Source: an uncultured Holophagales bacterium (lineage in GTDB: Bacteria; Acidobacteriota; Thermoanaerobaculia; UBA5066). From it: a stretch of 11,834 nt of DNA. The position numbers were made by a program, and so were the translations under genes. Under the pieces are notes generated by a model that made no database searches, was not told the DNA's origin, and saw only the letters and a program-made list of their open reading frames with translations. The stretch is taken from positions 1 through 11,834 of the forward strand of contig CALMDF010000080.1 of the NCBI GenBank assembly GCA_937864895.1, written 5' to 3'. Below, piece by piece: positions 872-11,834 of this stretch; the stretch's first letter is position 1; the number at the start of each line of letters is the position of its first letter.

Positions 872-877
872 TATGAT
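872..877 (+). promoter_or_regulatory. Possible -10 element (TATGAT) before the sigma-factor gene
   Basis: TATGAT matches the sigma-70 -10 consensus at five of six positions and stands out in a very GC-rich context. No matching -35 hexamer is seen 16-18 bases upstream, and the element overlaps the first candidate ATG (873). If it is real, transcription would begin near 884 and translation at the ATG at 945. Confidence 0.25.
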
Positions 878-1550
878 TCGTCCGACGCGAAAGCCCACAG
901 GGTCCGGGAACCCCGGCGTTTCGTCGTTGGATCCCACGAGCGGCATGGACAGCGGACCGAAGCCCGGGCACGTGACCCAGCTCCTCCTCGCCTGGGGCGA
1001 CGGGGACCGGTCAGCCTACGAACGCCTCGTGCCGCTCGTGTACGAGGAGCTCCACGACATGGCGCAGCGCTACCTGCGCCGGGAACGCACGGACCACACG
1101 CTCCAGCCGACGGCGCTCGTCAACGAAGCCTACCTGCGGCTGGTGGACCAGAGCTCGGCGAGGTGGAGCAACCGGGCGCAGTTCTTCGGTGTCGCCGCGC
1201 AGGCGATGAGGAGGATCCTCGTGGACCATGCGCGCGGCCGCTCCGCCCGGAAACGCGGCGGAGACGCGGTGAAGGTCGTCCTCGGAGAGGCGGAAGGGGA
1301 CGCGCTCGCGTCCGACGGGTCCGCCGTGACCGTCCCCCGCGACGTCGAGCTGATCGACCTCGACGACGCCCTCCGCGCGCTCGCGGCCCTCGACCCCACG
1401 CTCGTCAGGGTCGTGGAGCTGCGCTACTTCGCGGGCCTCACGGTCGAGGAGGCCGCCGCGGTCCTCGACGTCTCGCCGGCGACGGTGAAGCGGGACTGGG
1501 TCACCGCACGGGCTTGGCTCTTCCAGCGCCTGCGCGGGGCGAGGCCGTGA
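873..1550 (+). CDS. ECF-type RNA polymerase sigma factor (Sig-70_X6-like)
   Basis: A 225-residue alternative sigma factor that should direct RNA polymerase to a specific promoter set. Counting from 873, region 2 spans about residues 34-125 and includes the subfamily signature TLQPTALVNEAYLRL (76-90) and then RAQFFGVAAQAMRRILVDHAR; a KRGG motif follows. Region 4 is near 170-222, with the helix-turn-helix GLTVEEAAAVLDVSPATVKR at 188-207. The start is uncertain. ATG 873 has AGGGGG nine bases upstream, but the first 24 residues are Pro/Gly/Ser-rich and unlike the family. ATG 945 (giving 201 residues) starts where homologues usually do but has a weak ribosome site. No anti-sigma gene is adjacent; instead the stop codon overlaps the start of a Ser/Thr kinase gene. 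That arrangement is common for this subfamily in Acidobacteriota and Planctomycetota and suggests phosphorylation-linked control. Its targets cannot be told from the sequence, and the downstream polyglutamate operon is only one candidate. Confidence 0.9.
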   Translation: MIRPTRKPTGSGNPGVSSLDPTSGMDSGPKPGHVTQLLLAWGDGDRSAYERLVPLVYEELHDMAQRYLRRERTDHTLQPTALVNEAYLRLVDQSSARWSNRAQFFGVAAQAMRRILVDHARGRSARKRGGDAVKVVLGEAEGDALASDGSAVTVPRDVELIDLDDALRALAALDPTLVRVVELRYFAGLTVEEAAAVLDVSPATVKRDWVTARAWLFQRLRGARP

Positions 1551-4099
1551 GCACGGAGCGCTGGAGGGAGACCCGGTCGCTCTTCGACGCGGCGCGGGAA
1601 CGCCGCCCCGAGGACCGGGACCGTTTCCTGCGCGAGGGGTGCGAGGACGAGGGGCTCCGAAAGGACGTTTCCGACCTCCTCACCGCCTCGGAGGAGGCGG
1701 GCGACTTTCTCGAGGAGCCGATCGTGGAGAGCGCGGAGCTCTTCCCCGGAGTCGCCCCGCGCCGGATCGGTCCCTACGCGGTGGTGCGGCGGATCGGCCT
1801 CGGCGGGATGGGCGCGGTCTACCTCGCGCACCGGAGCGAGACCCCGCTCTCGGACGTCGCCGTGAAGGTCATCAAGCGGGGGATGGACACGGAGCTCTTC
1901 GTCGACCGGTTCCGTCACGAGCGGGAGATCCTCGCCGGCCTCGACCACCCGAACATCGCCCGCCTCGTCGACGGCGGCGCCACGGACGACGGGCTCCCCT
2001 TCTTCGTCATGGAATACATCGAGGGGGAGCCGATCCACCGCTTCTGCGAGCGGAACGAGCTGACCCGCGAGGCGCGGCTCGACCTCTTCCTCGAGGTCTG
2101 CGCGGCGGTGGCCTACGCGCACCGGCACCTCGTCGTCCACCGGGACGTCAAGCCCGGGAACATCCTCGTCACCCGGGACGGCGTCCCGAAGCTCCTCGAC
2201 TTCGGGCTGGCGAAGGTCCTCGACCCCGACCCGGCGGCCGAGGCGGCCAGCGGGACGGCGACCGGGCTCAGGATGCTCACTCCGGACTACGCGAGCCCCG
2301 AGCAGGTGCGCGGCGAACGGATCACGACCTCGACCGACGTCTACTCGCTCGGCGTCCTGCTTTACGAGCTCCTGACCGGCCGGCGTCCCTACCGGACGAG
2401 CCACCACACGCCGGAAGAGCTGGCGCGCGTCGTCTGCGAGGCCGAGCCGGAGAGGCCGCCGAGCGGCGCGCACGTGCCCGCCGACCTCGTGAACGTCCTC
2501 TTCATGGCGCTCCGCAAGGAGCCCTCGCGCCGCTACGCGTCCGTCGACCAGCTGGCGGAGGACGTGCGCCGGTACCGGAAGGGGCTTCCCGTCATCGCGC
2601 GGAAGGGGACGTTCAGCTACCGGGCGGCCAAGTTCCTGAAGCGCCACCGGGCGGGGGTCGCCGCGGCGTCGCTCGTCGTCCTGGCCGTGCTCGCGGGCCT
2701 CGCCTCGACGGTCTGGCAGGCGAGAAAGGCCCAGGCGGAGAGGGCGCGGGCCGAGAGGCGTTACGGAGAGGTGCGCCGCCTCGCCGGGAGCCTCCTCTTC
2801 GAGCTCGACGAGGCGATCGCCGACCTGCCCGGCGCCACGCACGCGCGCGAGCTCCTCGTGCGGCGAGCCCTCGAGTACCTGTCGACGCTCGAGACGGAGA
2901 GCGACGGGGACCTCTCGCTCCAGCGCGAGCTGGCCGTCGCCTTCCTCCGGGTCGGCGAGGTCCAGGCCCGCGGTTTCGGCCTCGACCTCGGCGAGATCTC
3001 GGGCGCGCTCGAGAGCTTCCACAAGGCGATGGTGATCCGCCAGCGGCTCGTCGACGCGAGCCCGTCGGACCTCGAGGCCCAGGACGACCTCGCGGAGAGC
3101 CTCCTCAGGATCGCCCGGGTCATGGGCCAGATGGGCGACGCGACCTACTACATCGCCTACGCGCGCCAGGCGGTCACCATCCGCGAGGTGCTCGCCGCCG
3201 CGAGGCCCGCGAACGCCGCCTTCCGGTCGGGCCTCGCGGCCGCCCACGAGACGCTGGGGAACGCCCTGATGTCGGAGGCCGACCTCCCGGGAATGCTCGA
3301 GGCCTTCCGCAAGCTCCTCGTGCTCCGCCGGGAGCTCGCGGGCGACGGCCCCGGCGCCTTCCGCTCCCGCTGCGACCTCGTGGACGCGCACTGGGACCTC
3401 GGTCTCGCGCTCGCCCTGAACGGGGACGGGGCCGGCGCCCTCGAGAGCTGGCGGAGGGCGGAGGCGCTCCTCGAGGAGCTCGGGGCGGCCTCGCCCGGCA
3501 GCGAGAGGGTCCGCTCCGCGCAGATGCGCACCTTCACGCAGGTCGGCGGGAGCCTGAACGCGCTGGGGCAGAGAGCCGCGGCGCTCCAGTACCTTCGCCG
3601 CGCCGCGGCGACCGGGGAGACGCTCCACGCCACCGACCGGGGAAACGCCGAGGTGCGTCACCGGCTCGCGGAGACGTACCTCGACCTCGGGACGACGCTC
3701 GCCGCGGCCGGAGCCGGGCGGGAGGCCGTGGAGGTCCTGGAGAAGGCCCGCGAGCTCCTCGAGCGGTGGTGGCGGGCGAGCCCCTTGAACGTCCAGATCG
3801 CCGTCACCCTCGCCGGGGTCTACGAGAGCCTCGGCCAGGCGCACGAGCCCTTCGCCCGGCCGGGGACGACCGGGCCCGCGGGCGCGGGCTGGCGAGCCGC
3901 CCGGTCCTGGTACCAGCGATCCCTCGACGTGTGGCACGACCTGGAGGCCCGCAATCGGCTCGCGAGGCTCTACCGGTCCCGAACGGAGCGGGTCGCCGAG
4001 GCGGTGCTGAAGTGCGACGCCGCGCTGGCGTCCCCCCGTTCGAACCGGGGGCCTTCGCCGACGGAGCGGGAGCTCACCGGGGGTCTGCCTGCCGGGTGA
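1547..4099 (+). CDS. Membrane-anchored Ser/Thr protein kinase with C-terminal TPR region
   Basis: An 850-residue protein read from a GTG that overlaps the sigma-factor TGA (GTGA). Residues 1-72 form the small helical region usual before kinases of this class. The Hanks-type kinase domain covers about 77-345: glycine loop G84-LGGM-G89, VAVK lysine K107, catalytic loop HRDVKPGN (H198, D200, N205), DFG at 218-220, and ASPE (249-252) in place of APE. All residues needed for activity appear intact. One transmembrane helix lies at about 369-391 (AGVAAASLVVLAVLAGLAS). Beyond it, residues 400-790 form several TPR-like helical pairs, for example ALESFHKAMVIRQRLV near 487, so the TPR array probably faces outside the cytoplasm and may sense a protein partner or cell-envelope state. 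Translational coupling with the ECF factor suggests that the kinase modulates that sigma factor; this is known for some kinase-linked ECF groups but is inferred here. The substrate is unknown. Confidence 0.93.
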   Translation: MSTERWRETRSLFDAARERRPEDRDRFLREGCEDEGLRKDVSDLLTASEEAGDFLEEPIVESAELFPGVAPRRIGPYAVVRRIGLGGMGAVYLAHRSETPLSDVAVKVIKRGMDTELFVDRFRHEREILAGLDHPNIARLVDGGATDDGLPFFVMEYIEGEPIHRFCERNELTREARLDLFLEVCAAVAYAHRHLVVHRDVKPGNILVTRDGVPKLLDFGLAKVLDPDPAAEAASGTATGLRMLTPDYASPEQVRGERITTSTDVYSLGVLLYELLTGRRPYRTSHHTPEELARVVCEAEPERPPSGAHVPADLVNVLFMALRKEPSRRYASVDQLAEDVRRYRKGLPVIARKGTFSYRAAKFLKRHRAGVAAASLVVLAVLAGLASTVWQARKAQAERARAERRYGEVRRLAGSLLFELDEAIADLPGATHARELLVRRALEYLSTLETESDGDLSLQRELAVAFLRVGEVQARGFGLDLGEISGALESFHKAMVIRQRLVDASPSDLEAQDDLAESLLRIARVMGQMGDATYYIAYARQAVTIREVLAAARPANAAFRSGLAAAHETLGNALMSEADLPGMLEAFRKLLVLRRELAGDGPGAFRSRCDLVDAHWDLGLALALNGDGAGALESWRRAEALLEELGAASPGSERVRSAQMRTFTQVGGSLNALGQRAAALQYLRRAAATGETLHATDRGNAEVRHRLAETYLDLGTTLAAAGAGREAVEVLEKARELLERWWRASPLNVQIAVTLAGVYESLGQAHEPFARPGTTGPAGAGWRAARSWYQRSLDVWHDLEARNRLARLYRSRTERVAEAVLKCDAALASPRSNRGPSPTERELTGGLPAG

Positions 4100-4130
4100 T
4101 CCGCTGCCAGCCCTTTTCGCGCGTTAGGGT

Positions 4131-4137
4131 AGGGAGG
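4131..4137 (+). promoter_or_regulatory. Strong ribosome binding site AGGGAGG that sets the start of the first M14-like gene
   Basis: AGGGAGG lies eight bases before GTG 4146. The upstream in-frame GTG at 4137 overlaps this Shine-Dalgarno sequence, so it cannot be the start served by it. The 46-base gap after the kinase gene also contains TTAGGGTAG (4123-4131), which is less GC-rich than its surroundings and might be part of a promoter, though no clear -35 is visible. Confidence 0.55.
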
Positions 4138-4145
4138 TGGACCCG

Positions 4146-5276
4146 GTGTCGTCACGCGTCAGCCGCTCGGGAATGGCCGTCGTGGCCCTGGCGCTCGCCG
4201 TCGTGGCCCTCTCCGCGCGCGAGTTCCGGGCGATGTGGCGGACGGACGAGATCCGACCGGGGCCCGGCGTCACCCGTGTCGGGCGCCTTTCGGACGCGCA
4301 GCCGGCCCTCGCCGGGACGCCGGGCGACACCGCGGTCTACACGCTCGCCGCCCCGCCGGGCGCGCCGCCGGGCGGAACGGCGCTCGTCCTCGGCGGCACG
4401 CACGCCGACGAGCCGGCCGGCTACCTGGCCGCCGTCGTCCTCGTCGAGACCGCGATCGTCACAGCGGGGCGCCTGATCGTCATCCCGAGGGCGAACGCCT
4501 CGGGGTTCACGTACAACGTCCCGCAGGAGGCGCACCCGCAGCGGTTCGAGGTCCCGACGCCGCGGGGGCCGCGCGTCTTCACGTTCGGCGCCCGCGCGAC
4601 GAACCCGGTCCACCAGTGGCCCGACCCGCAGGTCTACACGCACCGGGGCTCGGGGCAGGCCCTCTCGGGAGCCGAGACGAGGAACCTGAACCGGGCCTAC
4701 CCCGGGCGGGCCGACGGCTCTCTCACCGAGAGAATCGCCTTCGCGATCACGTTGCTCGTCCGGGACGAGCGCGTCGATCTCGCGATCGACCTTCACGAGG
4801 CCGCCCCCGAGTACCCGGTCGTCAACACGATCGTCGCCCACGAGCGGGCGACCGAGCTGGCCGCCCTCGTGAACGTGAACCTGAGCGGCAGCGGGATCAC
4901 GATCGGCCTCGAGCCGTCGCCGAAGACGCTGCACGGCCTGTCGCACCGGGAGTGGGGCGATGCCACGCCCGCCCTCGCCGTCCTGATGGAGACGGCCAAC
5001 CCGGCCCAGGGACGCCTCCGGGGCCGGACGGACGCCGGCCTCGTCGTCACCGGCCGGGACCGCTACTTCCTCGCCGCCGCGCGCCGGCGCCGCCTGAACG
5101 TCCCGTTCGACGAGAACGGCTGGCCGCTCGACCTGCGGGTGGCGCGGCACCTGGCCGGCGTGACGCAGTTCGTGTCCGACCTCGGGATGTTCGACGAATC
5201 GAAAGGCATCGCCGTCACCGGTGTGCCGGCGTACGAGGACATCGTAGCCAACGGCGTCGGAGCGTACCTGCGGTGA
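4146..5276 (+). CDS. Exported M14-like zinc hydrolase, succinylglutamate desuccinylase/aspartoacylase family (copy 1)
   Basis: A 376-residue protein. GTG 4146 is chosen because AGGGAGG sits eight bases upstream. The N-terminus carries a hydrophobic segment (about 9-27, [16 protein letters not shown]) that acts as a signal or anchor, so the enzyme probably works outside the cytoplasm. Zinc-site motifs of the AstE/ASPA (M14-like) family are present: GGTHADE with likely ligands H86 and E89, NLNR at 180-183 for substrate binding, DLHE with the third ligand H217, and a candidate catalytic Glu at E282 (MET). The family removes acyl groups from amino acids or acts as carboxypeptidase; its known small-molecule members are cytosolic, unlike this one. 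A second copy lies at 8976-10106, sharing the 'GPGVTR...[12 protein letters not shown]' N-terminal block and [10 protein letters not shown]. Its place beside gamma-glutamyltransferase and pgsBC makes a gamma-glutamyl or poly-gamma-glutamate substrate plausible, but that is inference. The stop overlaps the next GTG. Confidence 0.8.
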
Positions 5277-6915
5277 CCCGGCTCGCGATCCTGCTGGCCC
5301 TGTCCCTCGCGACGGGGCGGACCCTGGGCGCGGCCCCGGCCGCGGCGGCGACCCGGAACCCGGAGGTCACGGCGCCTCACGGCATGGTCGCCTCGGCCCA
5401 CGCCCTGGCGTCGCAGGCCGGGCTCGAGCTCCTCCGGGCGGGAGGGAACGCGGTCGACGCCGCGGCGGCAGCCGCATTTGCCGTGGGAGTCGTGGAGCCG
5501 AACGCCTCCGGCATCGGCGGCGAGGGGCTGCTCGTCCTCTACAGGGCCGACACCCGCGAGGCGGTCGCCGTCGACTACCGGTCGACGGCCCCGCGACGGC
5601 GGCGTACCCCGGAAGGGTCCCCTCGACCGGCCACTCCGCGGTGGCGGTGCCCGGAACCGTCGCCGGCCTCGCGCTCGCCGTGGAGAGGTACGGGACGAAG
5701 AGCCTCGCCGAGGTGATGGCACCGGCCATCCGGCTCGCGCGCGACGGGTTCGTCGCGAGCCCCACCCTGGCCGGAATCGTCGCCGACTCGTTCGAGGAGC
5801 TCGCCGCGAACGCCCCGCTCGCGTCCGTCTTCTGCCCGGACGGCCTGCCGGTCGAGGCGGGCGCGACCGTGAAGAACCCCGACCTCGCGACCACCCTCGA
5901 GAAGATCGCGCGCTACGGACCGGACGTCTTCTACCGCGGCGGGATCGCCGAGGCGATCGTCGCCGAGAGCGCCGCGAACGGAGGGTTCCTCTCGAGGTCC
6001 GACCTCGCGGGCTACCGGGCGATCCTCCGCGAGCCGGTGAGGGGGAAGTACCGCGGCGTCACCGTCCTTTCCGGCCCGCCGCCCGTCGGCGGCACGCCGG
6101 TGATCGAGGCGCTGCAGATCCTGGACCGGTTCCGCGTCCGCAAGGGCCGACCGCTCGCCCCGGAGACGGTGCACGCCGTCGCCGAGTCGCTCAAGCGCGC
6201 CTACGCCGACTACCACGCCTTCGTCGCCGACCCCGGCTTCGTCGCGGTGCCGCTCGACCGGCTCCTCTCGCGCGCCTACGCGAAGCGGAGGGCGAAGGAG
6301 GTCGACAGGAACCGGATGACCGCGAAGGTCGTGGCCGGCGAGGTCCCCCGGGATCCGGGCCCGTCCACGACGTCGCTCGTGGTGGCCGACCGGCACGGCA
6401 ACCTGGTCTCCCTCACTCAGACGATCTCCGACTTCTTCGGGGCGAAGGTGATGGTCGCGGGGACGGGGATCATCCTCAACAACGAGATGAAGAACTTCTC
6501 GGCGCGCGGCGTCAACGCGATGGCGCCCGGGAAGCGGATGCGGACCCTGATCGCCCCGACCGTTCTCCTTCGGGGGAGCAAGCCGTTCGCGGTCCTCGGG
6601 ACGCCCGGGGGACCCCGGATCAGCGCGACGACGGTGCTTCTCGTCTCCAACCTCGTCGACCACGACATGCCCGTTCAGGAGGCGATCGAGGCCCCCCGCT
6701 ACTACGCCCGGGACACCGAGAAGGACCTGGCGGTCGAGTCGCGGTTCCCGAAGGAGACGCGGGAGGCCCTCGCCTCTCTCGGCTACACGTTCCAGGAGAT
6801 GAAGGACTACGACCTCTTCTTCGGCGGCGCCCAGGCCATCGTCATCGACCGCCGCACGGGAAACCGCGCCGGCGGCGCCGACCCTCGCCGGGACGGAACC
6901 GTGTCCGGGTACTGA
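5273..6915 (+). CDS. ggt: Gamma-glutamyltransferase / gamma-glutamyl hydrolase (GGT/CapD family), interrupted by a -1 frameshift
   Basis: The enzyme cleaves gamma-glutamyl amide bonds, and in capsule systems the CapD/PgsD relatives cut or anchor poly-gamma-glutamate. The 5' part (5273 to about 5593, frame 2) starts at a GTG overlapping the previous TGA. It has a signal-peptide-like N-terminus ([14 protein letters not shown]... GAAPAAA), then [33 protein letters not shown] and SGIGGEG. The homologous continuation is in frame 1 from 5593 ([22 protein letters not shown]) to the TGA at 6913-6915. Restoring one base gives about 547 residues, normal for the family. The autoprocessing site is the first Thr (nt 6367, about residue 366) in [11 protein letters not shown]; Ser replaces the His found after the two threonines in E. 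coli [23 protein letters not shown] and GTPGGPRIS complete the small subunit. As written, frame 2 stops at 5716 and the product would be inactive; an isolated base error is the simplest explanation. Confidence 0.88.
5589..5596 (+). other. ggt: Probable -1 frameshift (single missing base) in the gamma-glutamyltransferase gene
   Basis: Frame 2 carries the homologous sequence [10 protein letters not shown] up to 5593. Frame 1 resumes at once with [16 protein letters not shown]. The junction GGCCCCGCGACGG is G/C-rich and one missing C or G explains it. There is no gap in homology on either side, and no A/T-rich slippery heptamer of the kind used for programmed -1 shifts. Confidence 0.7.
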
Positions 6916-6939
6916 GACGGACCCTCTGAAAGGACGACC

Positions 6940-7512
6940 ATGAAGAAAACGCTCTCCGTCCTCGCCGCCACGCTCGCTTCCTTCGCCCTGGTCCGGCCGG
7001 CTCCGGCCGCCCCGCCGCCCGTCTTCGAGGGGCCCGGGGTCCTCTCGTCGATCGGCCAGAGCTCGGACATCGCGGTGGTCAAGGTCCTCCTCAACACCAA
7101 GCTGAAGCTGGGGCTCGACGTGAAGCCGCTGGCCCAGCCGGCCGACCTCGCGGGGCAGAAGTCGCTCGTCGTCGTCGTCGGCGCGAGCACGAAGGGGCTC
7201 GGGGCGGCCGGGCTCGACGTCGCCAGGGAGACCGAGCGGGCGAAGGCGCTCCTCGAAGCCGCGCGCGCGAAGGGAATCGGGGTGATCGCGCTCCACACCG
7301 GCGGCGGCTCGCGGCGCGGAAAGACGACGGACGACCTCGTCAAGCTCGTCGTGCCGCTCTCGGACTACGTCGTCGTCGTCGCGGGCGGGAACAAGGACAA
7401 GTCGTTCCAGGCGGCCGCGGGAGCGCGCCCGGTCCCGATCGTCGAGGTCGAGTCGCTCGCGGCCGTCGGCGACGCCGTGAAGGCCGTCTTCCGGGAGACC
7501 CGTGCCCCCTGA
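6940..7512 (+). CDS. Secreted DUF6305-type protein associated with a permease
   Basis: A 190-residue protein with ATG start and AAAGGA five bases upstream, separated from the GGT stop by 24 bases. It has a clear signal peptide (MKKTLSVLAATLASFALVRPAPAA), so it should be periplasmic or extracytoplasmic. The mature part begins PPPVFEGPG, has an alternating strand/helix pattern like a small Rossmann-type fold, and carries two Gly-rich turns: GASTKGLG at 81-88 and HTGGGSRRGK at 119-128. A third strand-turn, YVVVVAGGNKD, follows. From memory this matches proteins labelled DUF6305, whose biochemical function I do not know. The downstream permease gene overlaps it by 11 bases, which suggests the two products work together. 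An extracytoplasmic ligand-binding or accessory subunit for that permease is a reasonable guess. It does not resemble DctP or TctC solute-binding proteins. Confidence 0.7.
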   Translation: MKKTLSVLAATLASFALVRPAPAAPPPVFEGPGVLSSIGQSSDIAVVKVLLNTKLKLGLDVKPLAQPADLAGQKSLVVVVGASTKGLGAAGLDVARETERAKALLEAARAKGIGVIALHTGGGSRRGKTTDDLVKLVVPLSDYVVVVAGGNKDKSFQAAAGARPVPIVEVESLAAVGDAVKAVFRETRAP

Positions 7513-8821
7513 CCCTTCGCTCCTCGGCCGGCTCCCGTCCGGCTGGGCGGAACCGGCGACGCTCCTCGTGATGATCGGCGTCTTCGGAGCGCTCTCGGCG
7601 CGGCTCCGCTGGCAGACCGGGATCGCGCTCGGCGTCGCCGCGTGGGCCGGCGCGGCGGCCAACGGCCACCTGCTGCCCCTCCGGCAGCTCGTGGAGGGGG
7701 GAACGGCCTACATCGACCCCCTCCTCGCCATCGCGACGGCGATGATCTTCATGCGCGTTCTCCTCGACGGCGGCGCGCTCGCGTCGATCGGCGGGGCGGT
7801 GGAGCGGGCCTTCGGCTCCCGTCCCCTCTTCCTCGTCCCTTCCGTGATGCTCATCGTGATGTTCCCGGGGATGATCACCGGCTCGTCGACGGCCTCGGTC
7901 CTGACGACCGGCGTCATGGCCCTGACGATCCTGGGCGGGCTCGGCCTGCCTCCCGAGCGGTCGGCGGCCTTCGTCGCGATGGGGGGTGTCCTCGGGATGG
8001 TCGCGCCGCCGATCAACATCCCCGCGATGATCATCGGGGCCGGGCTCGACCTGCCCTACGCGGGGTTCGGCGTGCCGCTTTCGCTCATCGCCTTTCCGAC
8101 GGCCCTCCTCACGGGCTACCTCCTCGCGTGGCCGCTCCTCCGGCAGGGAGGCGCCCCTCGCGCGCCGCGGGAATCGTCCGGGGAGTCCCTGCCGGCGCCG
8201 GCCGTCCCGCTGGGACGCGCCCTCCTGGGCCCCGCGGCGGCGGTCCTCCTGATGGTCCTGCCGCGGGTCGCGCCAGCAGCCGTCCCGGATCCCGGCCTGC
8301 CCCTGGCGTTCCTCGCGGCGGCCGCGGTCGCGGTCGTCTCGATGCCGCGCTTCGACGTCTGGTATTCGTGTCTCCGCGCGACAGAAGAAGCGCTGCCCGT
8401 CCTCGGCATCCTCGTCGGCGTGGGGGCGTTCATCCAGGTCCTGACGCTGACCGGGGCGCGCGGGTTCGTCGTCTCCCTCATGATCGCGTCGCCCGCGGGA
8501 GCGCTCATCGCCGTCGCGGCCATCGGGCTACCCCTGTTCGGAGCGATCTCGGCCTTCGGGTCGGCCTCCGTTCTCGGGGTGCCCCTCCTCCTTGCGCTCC
8601 TCGGGCGCAGCGACGTCGTCGTCGCCTCCGGTCTCTCCGCCCTCGCCTCGATCGGCGACCTGATGCTCCCCGTCGCGCTCGCGCCGACCCTCGCCGCGCA
8701 GGCCGCGGGCGTCGACCGCCTCGTCGTCCTCCGCCGCTGCGTCGTTCCCGCCCTCCTCCTGGTAGCCGCCGCCGTCGTCGTCCTCGTCGCCGCTCCCGCC
8801 ATCGGGCGGCTGGCGAGCTGA
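7502..8821 (+). CDS. TRAP-transporter-like large permease (DctM-like integral membrane protein)
   Basis: A 439-residue, strongly hydrophobic protein with about 11-12 predicted membrane segments. It starts at GTG 7502, four bases after GGGAG and inside the end of the preceding gene. Motifs fit the DctM/ion-transporter superfamily: PGMITGSSTAS at 122-132 (a helix-breaking Gly/Ser/Thr hairpin) and GMVAPPINIPAMIIGAG (about 166-182), the counterpart of the Pro-Pro substrate loop. A second, weaker internal repeat contains the segment FGAISAFGSASVLGVP. TRAP permeases import carboxylates with a periplasmic binding protein and a small DctQ subunit. Neither standard partner is encoded here; instead a DUF6305 gene precedes it and a 48-residue membrane protein follows. 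In this operon the substrate could be glutamate, a gamma-glutamyl oligomer or another dicarboxylate. The direction of transport and the substrate are not shown by the sequence. Confidence 0.78.
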   Translation: MPPDPSLLGRLPSGWAEPATLLVMIGVFGALSARLRWQTGIALGVAAWAGAAANGHLLPLRQLVEGGTAYIDPLLAIATAMIFMRVLLDGGALASIGGAVERAFGSRPLFLVPSVMLIVMFPGMITGSSTASVLTTGVMALTILGGLGLPPERSAAFVAMGGVLGMVAPPINIPAMIIGAGLDLPYAGFGVPLSLIAFPTALLTGYLLAWPLLRQGGAPRAPRESSGESLPAPAVPLGRALLGPAAAVLLMVLPRVAPAAVPDPGLPLAFLAAAAVAVVSMPRFDVWYSCLRATEEALPVLGILVGVGAFIQVLTLTGARGFVVSLMIASPAGALIAVAAIGLPLFGAISAFGSASVLGVPLLLALLGRSDVVVASGLSALASIGDLMLPVALAPTLAAQAAGVDRLVVLRRCVVPALLLVAAAVVVLVAAPAIGRLAS

Positions 8822-8828
8822 GGGGAGG
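8822..8828 (+). promoter_or_regulatory. Ribosome binding site GGGGAGG for the 48-residue membrane protein
   Basis: GGGGAGG follows the permease stop directly and lies four bases before ATG 8833. It supports this very short reading frame as a translated gene. Confidence 0.6.
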
Positions 8829-8832
8829 TCCG

Positions 8833-8979
8833 ATGCTGATCGTCTACCGCCTCATCGCCGCGCTCCTCGCCCTCCTCGTCCTCGTCGTCACGCTCCGCGA
8901 GCGCGCCTCGCTCGGGGCGAGGGTCGTCGGAGGGATGGTCCTCGTCCCGCTCGTCCTCCGGCTGCTGCTCGTGAAGTGA
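8833..8979 (+). CDS. Small hydrophobic membrane protein, 48 residues
   Basis: The reading frame starts at ATG 8833 behind GGGGAGG, 11 bases after the permease stop, and its TGA overlaps the GTG of the next gene (GTGA). The product (MLIVYRLIAALLALLVLVV, then a polar TLRERASLGAR turn, then VVGGMVLVPLVLRLLLVK) reads as two short transmembrane helices joined by a charged loop. Its fit into the operon, with a good ribosome site and a coupled junction on the 3' side, argues that it is real. Two roles can be imagined: a small subunit of the upstream permease (DctQ is much larger, with four helices), or a counterpart of CapE/PgsE, the roughly 50-residue membrane peptide of Bacillus polyglutamate operons, which has no sequence motif to test against. 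Neither is proved. Confidence 0.7.
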   Translation: MLIVYRLIAALLALLVLVVTLRERASLGARVVGGMVLVPLVLRLLLVK

Positions 8980-10106
8980 GCCTCCGAATGCGTCCTCTCC
9001 GGCTCCCCGCCCTCGTCACGCTCTCAGCCCTCGCGTTCGTCGCCCCCGCGTGCCGGGCCACGTCCCCCGTTCCGCCCGCGAGCCCCGCCACCGCCGCACC
9101 GGTCCGCCTCCCGCGCGGCACGCCGGAGACCCACGACATCCGGACGGGCCCGGGAGTCACCCGCACCCTGATGCTCTCGGACTACCACCCGTCGCTCGCC
9201 GGCACCCCGGGCGACACGCCGGTCTACGTCCTCGAGGGGAAGGAGCCGGGCGGCACGTGCGTCGTCGTCGGCGGCACGCACCAGAACGAGCTCGCGGGGA
9301 TCTTCGCCGCCACGGTGCTCGTCGAGACCGCCCGGGTGAGCCGGGGCCGCCTGGTCGTCGTCCCCCGGGCCAACAACTCGGCCGTGACGCTGCGCGACGA
9401 GAAGCGCCCCGCGCCCGAGTGGGTCGTCATCGCCTCTCCCTCGACGCCGCCCTCCGCCTCGCGCCGCTTCCGGTTCGGCTCGCGCCTGACGAACCCCTTG
9501 CACCAGGGGGCGCCGGACCCGGCCGAGGTGAGGCTGCCCGGCGCGTCGAAGGCGCTTCCCGGCTACGAGGCGCGAAACCTGGACCGGGCCTTCCCGGGAT
9601 CCGCGGAGGGACCGCTCACCCGGCAGGTCGCTTTCGCGATCGTCGAGCTCCTGCGCCGCGAGAAGGCCGACCTGGCTTTCGACCTCCACGAGGCGCCGCC
9701 CGCTTCCCGGCTCTCCTGGATGCTCGTCTCCCACCCCCGTGGCCTCGACCTGGCGGCGGAAGCGATCCTCGAGCTCGACGCCGCGGGGCTCCCGATGAAG
9801 CTGGAGGCTTCGGACGAGGGGTTCCGGGGCCTGTCGCACCGCGAGTGGGGCGACGCCACGCCCGTCCTGTCGTTCCTCGTCGAGACCCCGAACCCGAACC
9901 AGGTCGAGGGGGCTCGCGACGTCGAGCCGGTCAGCCACCCCGAGTACCCGCTCGCCTCCCGCATCGCCGCGCAGCTCCAGACGGTCCTGACGGTCGTCGC
10001 GACCCATGCCGCGTCGGCCCCCCCGGAGCGGCGGATCGAGCTCGCGCCCGGGCCCGACTACCGGCTCATCGGCAGGAAGGGGCTCGGGGAGTTCCTTCTC
10101 TGGTGA
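8976..10106 (+). CDS. Exported M14-like zinc hydrolase, succinylglutamate desuccinylase/aspartoacylase family (copy 2)
   Basis: A 376-residue protein from GTG 8976, which overlaps the previous stop. ATG 8988 is a possible alternative; neither has a strong ribosome site. The N-terminus is a signal peptide (LRLPALVTLSALAFVAPA) followed by Cys; PAC is not a good lipobox, so lipid anchoring is doubtful. Zinc-site motifs are complete: GGTHQNE with H102 and E105, NLDR at 201-204, DLHE with H238, and a candidate catalytic Glu E303 (VET). It is a diverged duplicate of the protein at 4146-5276. Both share a GPGVTR block, [22 protein letters not shown] and [10 protein letters not shown]. The copies differ in the loops after the third ligand (PEYPVVNTI against PASRLSWML) and in the C-terminal third, so they may have different substrates or cut ends. 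Placement directly before pgsB favours a role on gamma-glutamyl polymer, by inference. The stop overlaps the pgsB GTG. Confidence 0.8.
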   Translation: MSLRMRPLRLPALVTLSALAFVAPACRATSPVPPASPATAAPVRLPRGTPETHDIRTGPGVTRTLMLSDYHPSLAGTPGDTPVYVLEGKEPGGTCVVVGGTHQNELAGIFAATVLVETARVSRGRLVVVPRANNSAVTLRDEKRPAPEWVVIASPSTPPSASRRFRFGSRLTNPLHQGAPDPAEVRLPGASKALPGYEARNLDRAFPGSAEGPLTRQVAFAIVELLRREKADLAFDLHEAPPASRLSWMLVSHPRGLDLAAEAILELDAAGLPMKLEASDEGFRGLSHREWGDATPVLSFLVETPNPNQVEGARDVEPVSHPEYPLASRIAAQLQTVLTVVATHAASAPPERRIELAPGPDYRLIGRKGLGEFLLW

Positions 10107-11233
10107 ACGAGACGGCCGCGATCCTGGGCTGCCTCGCCGTGATCCTCGCGGCGGGCCTCGTGGAACGTCTCCTCCGGGATCGCGCCCACTCGGGAATCCC
10201 GATCCGGGTCCACGTCAACGGGACGAGGGGAAAGTCGACCGTGACGCGCCTCGTCGCCGCGGCCCTGCGCGCACACGGAGTCCCGACTCTCGCCAGGGTC
10301 ACCGGGACCGAGGCCCGGGTCGTCCTGCCCGACGGGACGGAGAGGCCCGTCCGCCGCCTCGGCCCGGCGAACGTCCGCGAGGAGCTCCGCTTCCTCCTCC
10401 TGGCACGCCGCCTCGGCGTAAGGGCGGTCGTCGTCGAGTGCATGGCGATCCGGCCCGACCTGCAGCACGCGGCGGAGCGGGACATGGTCGTCTCGACGAT
10501 CGGCGTCGTCACGAACGTCCGCACCGACCACACGGAGGTCATGGGAGAGAGCCTGCCCGAGATCGCCGCCTCGCTCGCGGCGACGGTGCCCCGGGGAGGC
10601 GTCCTCGTCCTCGGCGCGCCCGATTTCGCCGGGCTCTTCCGCGAGCGCGCGGCCGGTCTGGGAGCGCGGGTGGTGGTCGCCGGGCCGCCGCCGGGCGCCT
10701 CGGCCACGCCGTGGCTCGACGAGAACGTCGCCACGGCGCTCGAGGTCACGCGGCTCCTCGGCGTGCCGGACGACGTCGCCCTCCGCGCCATGTCCGCCGC
10801 CCCGCCGGATCCGGGCGCCTTTCACGAGCACACCGCGAGCGTCGCGGGCCGCGAGGTCCCCGTCCTCGACGCGCGCGCGGCCAACGACCCCGAGTCGTTC
10901 GCCCTCCTCTGCGGGGGCTCGGCCGCCCTCAGGGAGGCGGGCCGTCCGGTCCTCGCGGTCTTCAATCACCGGCACGACCGCCCGGATCGCCTGCGCCGCT
11001 TCGCGCCGGCGCTCGCGGCGCTCCCGGACGCGCACGTCCTCCTCACGGGAGACCGGCCGGCGTGGTCCCTCGCCCGGGCGTCCCGGCACGCGGGGGGGGC
11101 GGCGTTCCGGTTCGTGCCGGTGAGCCGGCTGCGGGAGGCGGTTCAGGCCTCGGGCGCCCGCGCCATCGTCCTCTGCGGGAACACGCGCGGCCTGCCGGTT
11201 GCCGGGGTCGTGGGAGGATCGCCCCGTGGTTGA
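10103..11233 (+). CDS. pgsB: Poly-gamma-glutamate synthase subunit PgsB/CapB
   Basis: PgsB is the ATP-dependent amide ligase (Mur-ligase related) that forms gamma-linked glutamate chains at the membrane. This 376-residue protein (Bacillus PgsB is about 393) starts at a GTG overlapping the previous TGA, with GGGGAG 11 bases upstream. Residues 2-24 make an N-terminal membrane helix, as in Bacillus. The P-loop HVNGTRGKSTVTRL begins at 37 (G40-TR-G43-K44-S45). VVVECMAIRPDLQ (E112) and GVVTNVRTDHTEVMG (D142, H143) match Bacillus PgsB SECMAVNPDYQ and NVLEDHMDVMG. APPDPGAF and AANDPES near 235-265 and FNHRHDRPDR also align with the Bacillus protein. The pgsC gene overlaps it by eight bases. All expected catalytic motifs are intact, so the product should be active. 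The amino acid used could be L- or D-glutamate, or a related residue; the sequence does not tell. Confidence 0.95.
   Translation: MNETAAILGCLAVILAAGLVERLLRDRAHSGIPIRVHVNGTRGKSTVTRLVAAALRAHGVPTLARVTGTEARVVLPDGTERPVRRLGPANVREELRFLLLARRLGVRAVVVECMAIRPDLQHAAERDMVVSTIGVVTNVRTDHTEVMGESLPEIAASLAATVPRGGVLVLGAPDFAGLFRERAAGLGARVVVAGPPPGASATPWLDENVATALEVTRLLGVPDDVALRAMSAAPPDPGAFHEHTASVAGREVPVLDARAANDPESFALLCGGSAALREAGRPVLAVFNHRHDRPDRLRRFAPALAALPDAHVLLTGDRPAWSLARASRHAGGAAFRFVPVSRLREAVQASGARAIVLCGNTRGLPVAGVVGGSPRG
11212..11218 (+). promoter_or_regulatory. Ribosome binding site GGGAGGA for pgsC
   Basis: GGGAGGA lies inside the 3' end of pgsB, seven bases before GTG 11226. It fixes the pgsC start at 11226 rather than at an upstream codon. 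Confidence 0.6.
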
Positions 11234-11669
11234 GCTCGCGATCGCGCTCGGCATCGCCGTGAGCCTCCTCGTCACCGAGGTCCTCGGCGTCTCGGCCGCC
11301 GGGCTCGTCGTCCCCGGCTACCTCGCGCTCCACTTCGACCAGCCGGGCCGCCTCGCCGCGACCTTCGCCGTCGCCCTCGCCACGTGGGCGCTCGTCCGGT
11401 TCGTCCTGGCCCGCCTCGTCGTCCTCTACGGGCGGCGAAGGCTCGCGGTCGCGGTCCTCGCCGGGTTCCTCCTGAACGTTCTTTTCGACCGCGTCCTCTT
11501 CGCCCTCCCGGCCCAGCCCGTCGACGCCCGCGTCATCGGGTACATCGTCCCGGGCCTGATCGCCAACGAGGCCGTCTCCCAGGGCGTCGTCCCCACGGTG
11601 GCCGTGACTCTCCTCGTCGCCGTCGTGGTCCGCCTCCTCCTCGTCCTCGTCCTCGCCGGAATGCCGTGA
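11226..11669 (+). CDS. pgsC: Poly-gamma-glutamate synthesis membrane protein PgsC/CapC
   Basis: PgsC is the small multi-pass partner of PgsB in the polyglutamate synthase. The product is 147 residues (Bacillus PgsC is 149), starts at GTG 11226 behind GGGAGGA, and overlaps pgsB by eight bases. Most of it is hydrophobic, with about four or five membrane segments. Diagnostic blocks match Bacillus PgsC almost word for word: AAGLVVPGYLAL (24-35) and FDQP, VVLYGRRRLAV (about 65-75), FD in the following loop, and GYIVPGLIANE (105-115) followed by QG. The stop overlaps the next GTG (GTGA), so the third gene of the synthase set is probably translated in step with it. The product is membrane-bound and together with PgsB should make and feed the polymer outward. 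Confidence 0.95.
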   Translation: MVELAIALGIAVSLLVTEVLGVSAAGLVVPGYLALHFDQPGRLAATFAVALATWALVRFVLARLVVLYGRRRLAVAVLAGFLLNVLFDRVLFALPAQPVDARVIGYIVPGLIANEAVSQGVVPTVAVTLLVAVVVRLLLVLVLAGMP

Positions 11670-11834
11670 GGCCCGACGCGTCTTCGTTCCTCCGCCGGTC
11701 CCGCGTGCCGCCGTGGGCGCTTCTCGCCGCGGCGCTGGCGGCCGCGGGTGCGTGGCACCTCGCCGAGCCGCGCCTCACCCGGCGCGCGCCCGCCGCCACC
11801 GGGCTCGCGACCCGCGCCGCCGCGGCCGAGGCCA
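11666..11834 (+). CDS. Membrane-anchored protein after pgsC, N-terminal 56 codons only; candidate PgsW (or CapA/PgsA)
   Basis: The frame opens at a GTG that overlaps the pgsC stop and stays open to the end of the window. GGA lies five bases upstream. Residues 1-14 are polar and basic (Arg 2, 10, 11 and 13), followed by one membrane helix (PPWALLAAALAAAGAWHLAE, about 15-34) and a basic/Ala-rich stretch outside it. This layout, a short basic leader, one helix, then an Ala-rich region before the main domain, fits the poly-gamma-glutamate system protein PgsW, which stands after pgsBC in several phyla, as well as CapA/PgsA. Neither protein's domain is inside the window, so the choice rests on position and topology. 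The gene runs off the 3' edge, and no frameshift or stop is seen in the visible part. Confidence 0.6.
   Translation, partial: MRPDASSFLRRSRVPPWALLAAALAAAGAWHLAEPRLTRRAPAATGLATRAAAAEA

Follow-up and report, generated by a model that had tools for sequence, protein, structure and literature searches.

The contig analysed here raises the question of whether the genes located directly upstream of the poly-gamma-glutamate (PGA) synthase genes pgsB and pgsC serve the same polymer that the synthase produces. These genes encode a gamma-glutamyltransferase (GGT), two zinc hydrolases, a DUF6305 protein, a DctM-like permease and a 48-residue membrane protein, and are here referred to as the module. The window is the whole contig C80 (11,834 bases) of a draft genome from an uncultured Holophagales bacterium, which is 75% complete and comprises 3.1 Mb in 565 contigs. 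A functional link between the module and the synthase is well supported by the comparisons below. We consider it about an even chance that the two together represent a PGA system joined to a dedicated trimming-and-uptake module; that the transport is directed inward, and what it carries, we infer. The synthesis of PGA is in itself known, and the new element is a conserved, dedicated module that includes a transporter and is tied to the synthase across phyla; no description of such a module was found in a literature search of partial coverage.

The run consists of nine consecutive genes on the plus strand, from position 4137 to the end of the contig, of which the ninth is incomplete:

4137..5276, plus strand: putative exported zinc hydrolase of the AstE/AspA type, copy 1, 379 residues (PF24827, 38.2 bits, cut-off 25)
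5273..6915, plus strand: GGT gene with one frame break at about 5,580-5,640 (PF01019, 388.6 bits for 5641-6912 and 58.2 bits for 5273-5587 in another frame)
6940..7512, plus strand: DUF6305 protein with a signal-like N-terminus, 190 residues (PF19823, 149.3 bits, cut-off 25)
7502..8821, plus strand: DctM-like permease, 439 residues (PF06808, 18.3 bits, below the cut-off of 23.8)
8833..8979, plus strand: membrane protein of 48 residues, a hydrophobic reading frame conserved between permease and hydrolase
8976..10106, plus strand: putative exported zinc hydrolase of the AstE/AspA type, copy 2, 376 residues (PF24827, 37.4 bits, cut-off 25)
10103..11233, plus strand: PgsB, the Mur-ligase-like PGA synthase (TIGR04012, 263.4 bits, cut-off 222.7)
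11226..11669, plus strand: PgsC, the membrane partner of PgsB (TIGR04011, 112.6 bits, cut-off 96.45; PF14102, 111.9 bits, cut-off 27)
11666..11834, plus strand: start of the ninth gene, cut by the contig end (56 residues)

Six of the eight junctions in the run overlap by 4-11 bases, which suggests translational coupling, and the remaining two are gaps of 24 and 11 bases. A preliminary description, made from the letters of this DNA, had placed the named genes on one strand with gaps of at most 24 bases and had recognized PgsB, PgsC, two zinc hydrolases and a DUF6305 protein, all of which is borne out by the coordinates and scores listed above. It had also counted seven genes before pgsB, where there are six. 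The GGT gene that it named belongs to the family, as seen from the larger piece, but its frame is broken once, and the permease that it called DctM-like resembles DctM in all 34 members of an alignment (E<=0.01, best member 6e-12) but falls below the Pfam cut-off.

The conservation of the gene set was surveyed around the permease. Permease homologues numbered 1160 at E<=0.001 among 7998 scored proteins, the closest named one being 92% identical and labelled Thermoanaerobaculia. A profile of 34 permeases, made from 33 of 120 listed homologues and the window protein, was used to fetch permease-centred loci, and the best 80 of 81, from 79 genomes, were retained. According to their record titles, these loci belong to Acidobacteria, Rhizobiales, Verrucomicrobia, Synergistota, Spirochaetes, Aminicenantes, several Bacillota, Bipolaricaulota/Acetothermia, Desulfobacteraceae and others. 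The hydrolase was identified in 79 of the 80 loci, DUF6305 in 69, GGT in 64, PgsB in 28 and PgsC in 27, with PgsB and PgsC together in 25; many of the loci are truncated by contig ends. When only genes on the same strand and no more than 4 kb away were counted, after an overlap filter that in part drops genes overlapping their neighbours, the corresponding numbers were 78 for the hydrolase, 60 for GGT, 59 for DUF6305, 19 for PgsB and 6 for PgsC. A frequent order is GGT-DUF6305-permease-small gene-hydrolase, followed in some loci by PgsB-PgsC-TIGR04332, and many Synergistota have the order DUF6305-permease-small gene-hydrolase-GGT-PgsB-PgsC. At the level of the genome, a PgsB match at E<=1.7e-13 was present in 72 of the 79 permease-bearing genomes, in 43 of them over the curated cut-off, with six genomes lacking a match and one having only a match of 3.9e-5. 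The PgsB matches in Synergistota are divergent and low-scoring, and in many of those loci they lie beside PgsC.

The association was also seen where the genes are not neighbours. Among 396 genomes of Acidobacteriota, 35 were taken as PgsB-positive (E<=1e-30, a threshold that sets aside the 42 weaker of 77 genomes, the best of these at 1.7e-7), and DUF6305 exceeded its cut-off in 35 genomes. Both were found in 32 genomes, PgsB only in 3, DUF6305 only in 3 and neither in 358. Of the 13 PgsB-bearing families, 11 have DUF6305 as well, and no family holds DUF6305 alone. Two of the six exceptions, G090 and G069, belong to one genus, are 81% and 83% complete, and each have one of the two genes; three more (G211, G287, G336) are 75-86% complete; and the sixth, G267, is doubtful in that its match lies in a frame of 1433 residues with no PgsC match beside it, and it may contain no true PgsB. 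Likewise, PgsC and DUF6305 were found together in 41 of 100 Synergistota genomes, one alone in 2 and 2, and neither in 55. The Bacillus subtilis control contained PgsC and no DUF6305. Matches below the cut-off (DUF6305 in G148, G647 and G672, PgsC in G499) were not counted, and nor was the DUF6305 match in G622, which is barely at the cut-off inside a frame of 669 residues.

Several observations weigh against a fixed partnership of the module with the synthase. We examined 35 PgsB-centred regions from 34 other PgsB-positive genomes, one of which gives two regions, and the permease was found in 15. All 15 belong to the 27 long regions (13 kb or more), of which the other 12 lack the permease; two of these 12 (L146, L158) hold a hydrolase. 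DUF6305 is encoded elsewhere in the genome for 11 of the 12, the twelfth being the doubtful G267. Five genomes have pgsBC on a region or contig without the module (G060, G111, G245, G304, and G393, whose pgsBC contig is only 3.4 kb); in these, the permease is present elsewhere, at a distance of 150 bases or less from DUF6305 or, for second copies in G111 and G304, of up to about 4 kb. Two Synergistota genomes (G490, G554) contain PgsC and neither DUF6305 nor a full-length permease match. In Spirochaetota, the phylum of Rectinema, PgsC was identified in 8 of 149 genomes and DUF6305 convincingly in 1. The other seven have no module gene in the fetched surroundings of PgsC, and no permease match or DUF6305 in the genome; they hold PgsB, PgsC and a gene that, by a profile made here, is of the TIGR04332 type. 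Conversely, some Synergistota have up to seven DUF6305 copies and a single PgsC; G516, G517, G524 and G540 each contain five to seven copies and one PgsC. Two genomes, G563 and G502, hold the module without a PgsC match, with one stop counted in the DUF6305 gene of G502.

Because the synthases of Spirochaetota lack the module while genomes with only the module are rare, the tie is one-way: the module is seldom present without the synthase, and the synthase does not need the module. DUF6305 paralogues may serve other substrates, since there are many copies per single PgsC and since G563 and G502 have the module without PgsC. The preliminary description had taken the genes as one operon, had proposed a survey of pgsB and pgsC neighbourhoods across phyla, and had named synthase genes lying apart from the others as the observation that would speak against it. 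The survey shows that the set forms one run here and recurs across phyla, with DUF6305 tracking PgsB and PgsC also when unlinked. A single operon is not the rule across genomes, because 12 of 27 long PgsB regions lack the permease and seven of eight PgsC-bearing Spirochaetota lack DUF6305 and the permease; to that extent the synthase does lie apart.

The permease is one part of the putative transporter. Besides DctM, it is close to NhaC-type and CitMHS models. The TRAP systems (DctP-DctQ-DctM) are alike in that a large DctM-like permease is encoded along with an extracytoplasmic protein and a small membrane protein. The differences are that DUF6305 is here one small alpha/beta domain, that the small protein has only 48 residues and that the permease is below the DctM cut-off; no match to the DctP or DctQ families was found among the scanned stretches of the run. 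The 48-residue protein has no match to a Pfam family, yet in all 74 permease-hydrolase neighbours the two genes have a hydrophobic reading frame of 40-70 residues between them, a count that replaces an earlier profile count of 78 of 80 that included matches overlapping the permease. The filter used (hydrophobic, 40-70 residues, near the end of the permease) is lenient, and it is backed by conserved residues in the alignment, with R43 in 75 of 75 sequences, Y5 in 72 and K48 in 71. The structural model of DUF6305 is a single five-stranded alpha/beta domain with a mean predicted local distance difference test score of 91.7, for which fold comparison returned common arrangements only. In an alignment of 46 sequences (45 of the 61 relatives listed and the window protein), G39, Q40, G81, S83, K85, G86, G88, A90, G91, E97, G122, R125, R126 and D153 are invariant. 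An invariant lysine and two adjacent arginines beside glycine-rich stretches would suit an acidic ligand.

Both hydrolases have retained an active site of the AstE/AspA type, consisting of H-x-x-E, a later H and a late E, plus further R, N and H positions. In an alignment of 50 proteins (48 of the 80 relatives listed and the window proteins), H89, E92, H220, E285, R186 and N183 of copy 1 and H102, E105, H238 and E303 of copy 2 are invariant; we presume that these residues bind zinc or take part in catalysis, as in the family. Among solved structures, the hydrolase profile matches AstE/AspA-like proteins and DoeB best (2qj8, E 1.6e-14), and these top relatives include N-acyl amino acid deacylases. 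A weak match (E 1.2e-4) was obtained to 4wcm, which is listed as a conserved hypothetical secreted protein and which we take to be Csd4 of Helicobacter, although the listing does not carry that name. Csd4 is a zinc peptidase that acts on a gamma-D-glutamyl bond. The two pieces of GGT cover positions 2-54 (from 5273) and 81-512 (from 5641, in a different frame) of PF01019, and the threonine of the STT motif, presumably the catalytic one, is matched by T in all 63 of the long relatives. The hydrolases, GGT and DUF6305 are all predicted to be exported from their hydrophobic N-termini, as judged by eye.

The gene after pgsC in two relatives (L084, L071) is TIGR04332, with 334.9 and 365.8 bits against a cut-off of 100, a family that already carries the NCBIfam name of a PGA system protein. 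The ninth gene of the run has no NCBIfam match and no Pfam match over the cut-off in its 56 residues, and by its position it is possibly the same TIGR04332 protein. No capA gene (PF09587) was found in the run, though the contig stops 165 bases past pgsC; PF09587 has three matches on other contigs of the genome, two of them over the cut-off. Locus L062, from a genome without a PgsB match, has neither pgsB nor pgsC, and yet a TIGR04332-type gene (cluster c0) comes after its hydrolase, at 12500-13700.

Taken together, the following cycle can be proposed, of the make-trim-recover kind that the preliminary description had suggested. PgsB and PgsC link glutamate through the side chain into a polymer, which they pass outward, and here they would, with the TIGR04332 protein as in the relatives, make and export a gamma-linked glutamate chain. 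GGT and the two hydrolases, judging from their families and conserved residues, would cut the chain outside the inner membrane; PGA is the putative product of the run and the putative substrate of the hydrolases. The permease and the 48-residue protein, probably with DUF6305 to capture the substrate on the extracytoplasmic side, would form a transporter that brings glutamate or short gamma-glutamyl pieces back in, so that the polymer would be both a coat and a glutamate store on which the cell can draw again. The more specific proposal is held tentatively, at somewhat below even chances: that these three proteins are a new three-part, TRAP-like transporter for gamma-glutamyl products, and that PGA is made recyclable by GGT and AstE/AspA-type hydrolases in many uncultured and fermentative bacteria, partly beside a two-component system.

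The same genes might instead serve the maturation of the polymer, with GGT and the hydrolases setting the chain length or anchoring the polymer in a CapD-like manner, and with the permease and DUF6305 moving a precursor, a counter-ion or the chain outward, without recycling. CapD is of the GGT family and both anchors and cuts PGA (PMC10897055). The dependence of the module on the synthase would also fit maturation. However, the permease matches DctM, NhaC-type and CitMHS models, and DctM systems are importers; also, two exported hydrolases of the AstE/AspA type would exceed the needs of trimming, and we regard maturation without recovery as unlikely. It is only fairly unlikely that peptide-fermenting bacteria use the module as a general uptake system for N-acyl or gamma-glutamyl amino acids; it would then adjoin PgsBC as both handle glutamate, and PgsBC may make short gamma-glutamyl compounds and not long PGA. 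The surplus of DUF6305 over PgsC in Synergistota, the module without PgsC in G563 and G502, and the N-acyl amino acid deacylases among the solved relatives of the hydrolase are all in line with such a function, but DUF6305 without PgsB or PgsC is rare: among the positive genomes, it was seen in 3 of 35 Acidobacteriota, the three being 83-86% complete, and in 2 of 43 Synergistota. Scavenging of PGA from other organisms is disfavoured because the module is rare without the synthase, where a scavenger would be expected as well.

An accidental neighbourhood, or hitch-hiking by transfer with no shared function, seems very improbable. The distribution is patchy, and close relatives of the permease, DUF6305 and PgsB in metagenome-assembled genomes of Rhizobiales and Verrucomicrobia suggest transfer, but the co-occurrence persists when the synthase and the module are on different contigs, and the order recurs in 80 loci of many phyla. 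By BLAST similarity, the nearest permease loci are L058 (Rhizobiales), L059, L061, L060 (Verrucomicrobia) and L062; the nearest DUF6305 loci L060 and L058; the nearest GGT loci L061, L060 and L062; the nearest PgsB that of L140, from the same phylum, followed by L058 and L060; and the nearest hydrolase 2 those of L062 and L106 (L170 was omitted from one of these lists). In four sister genomes from the window's own family, which are 96-99% complete, the PgsB matches are no more than weak and Mur-like, and both DUF6305 and the permease are absent. The natural reading is that the cassette has moved between phyla.

We also compared the run to known systems. Some Bacillus cut PGA with GGT when starved and then use the glutamate (PMC10897055), so that Bacillus already has the first half of a make-cut-retake cycle. 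The Bacillus pgsBCA(E) and capBCADE systems, with GGT and PgdS, have PgsB, PgsC and a GGT-family enzyme in common with the run, which adds the permease, DUF6305, the 48-residue membrane protein and two AstE/AspA-type hydrolases and has no CapA gene, with the contig ending early. PGA systems defined by CapB and CapC are abundant in Synergistetes and others in a survey that includes Planctomycetes, and in the model proposed there CapB and CapC are mandatory and CapA and CapE accessory, while CapD may lie apart (PMC5542703). Those systems share the CapB-CapC core and some of the phyla with ours, and the permease module is not mentioned in the accessible part of that paper. The PGA operon of Cloacimonadota, an anaerobic uncultured phylum, is CapB-CapC-CapA, with no mention of a transporter or hydrolase module in the part of the report at hand (PMC13082233). 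The phage enzyme PghP, a zinc peptidase, acts on PGA at gamma-glutamyl bonds and cuts it (PMC4497714); the hydrolases of the run are likened to it by description, their best matches being AstE/AspA-like proteins and DoeB.

Upstream of the run, on the same strand, an ECF sigma factor gene (PF07638, 200.8 bits) and, immediately behind it, a Ser/Thr-kinase-like gene (named by eye) occupy positions 873-4099; the pair ends 37 bases before the first hydrolase gene and might share a transcript with the run. A search of 3900-11834 for a sigma-70-like promoter or a terminator gave none, which is a weak test at 70-75% GC, a composition that is uniform along the window. A BadF-like gene at 1-824 (PF01869, below the cut-off) is, by eye, also split between frames, and because a second gene of the contig is affected in this way, the breaks in both genes are likely to be assembly errors in a thin draft.

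Of the 80 permease-centred loci, 18 have a histidine-kinase-like gene within 3 kb of module or synthase genes and on their strand, and 18 have a response-regulator-like gene so placed, mostly in Synergistota and Bacillota by title, with one member of each cluster tested for its family and the others assigned as cluster mates. Both genes lie within 3 kb in L066, L071, L072, L079, L082, L084, L087, L089, L099, L109, L116 and L118. In family f44 (L142, L147, L148, L150-L154, L156), the module is opposite to pgsBC; its permease and DUF6305 genes have between them an M28-like peptidase gene of roughly 695 residues (named by eye), in most of these loci together with a gene of 200 residues. Upstream of GGT, six spirochaete loci (L095, L110, L112, L117, L121, L134) have a gene that weakly matches C45-acyltransferases, as tested on one member, and five of the six also hold a gene of 220 residues there.

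With the proposed module, DUF6305 and the unnamed family of small membrane proteins gain a first testable function, and the hydrolases become candidate gamma-glutamyl hydrolases beyond those of Bacillus and phages. If the proposal is true, PGA in several phyla would not be a one-way capsule but a polymer that its maker may dismantle and take up again.

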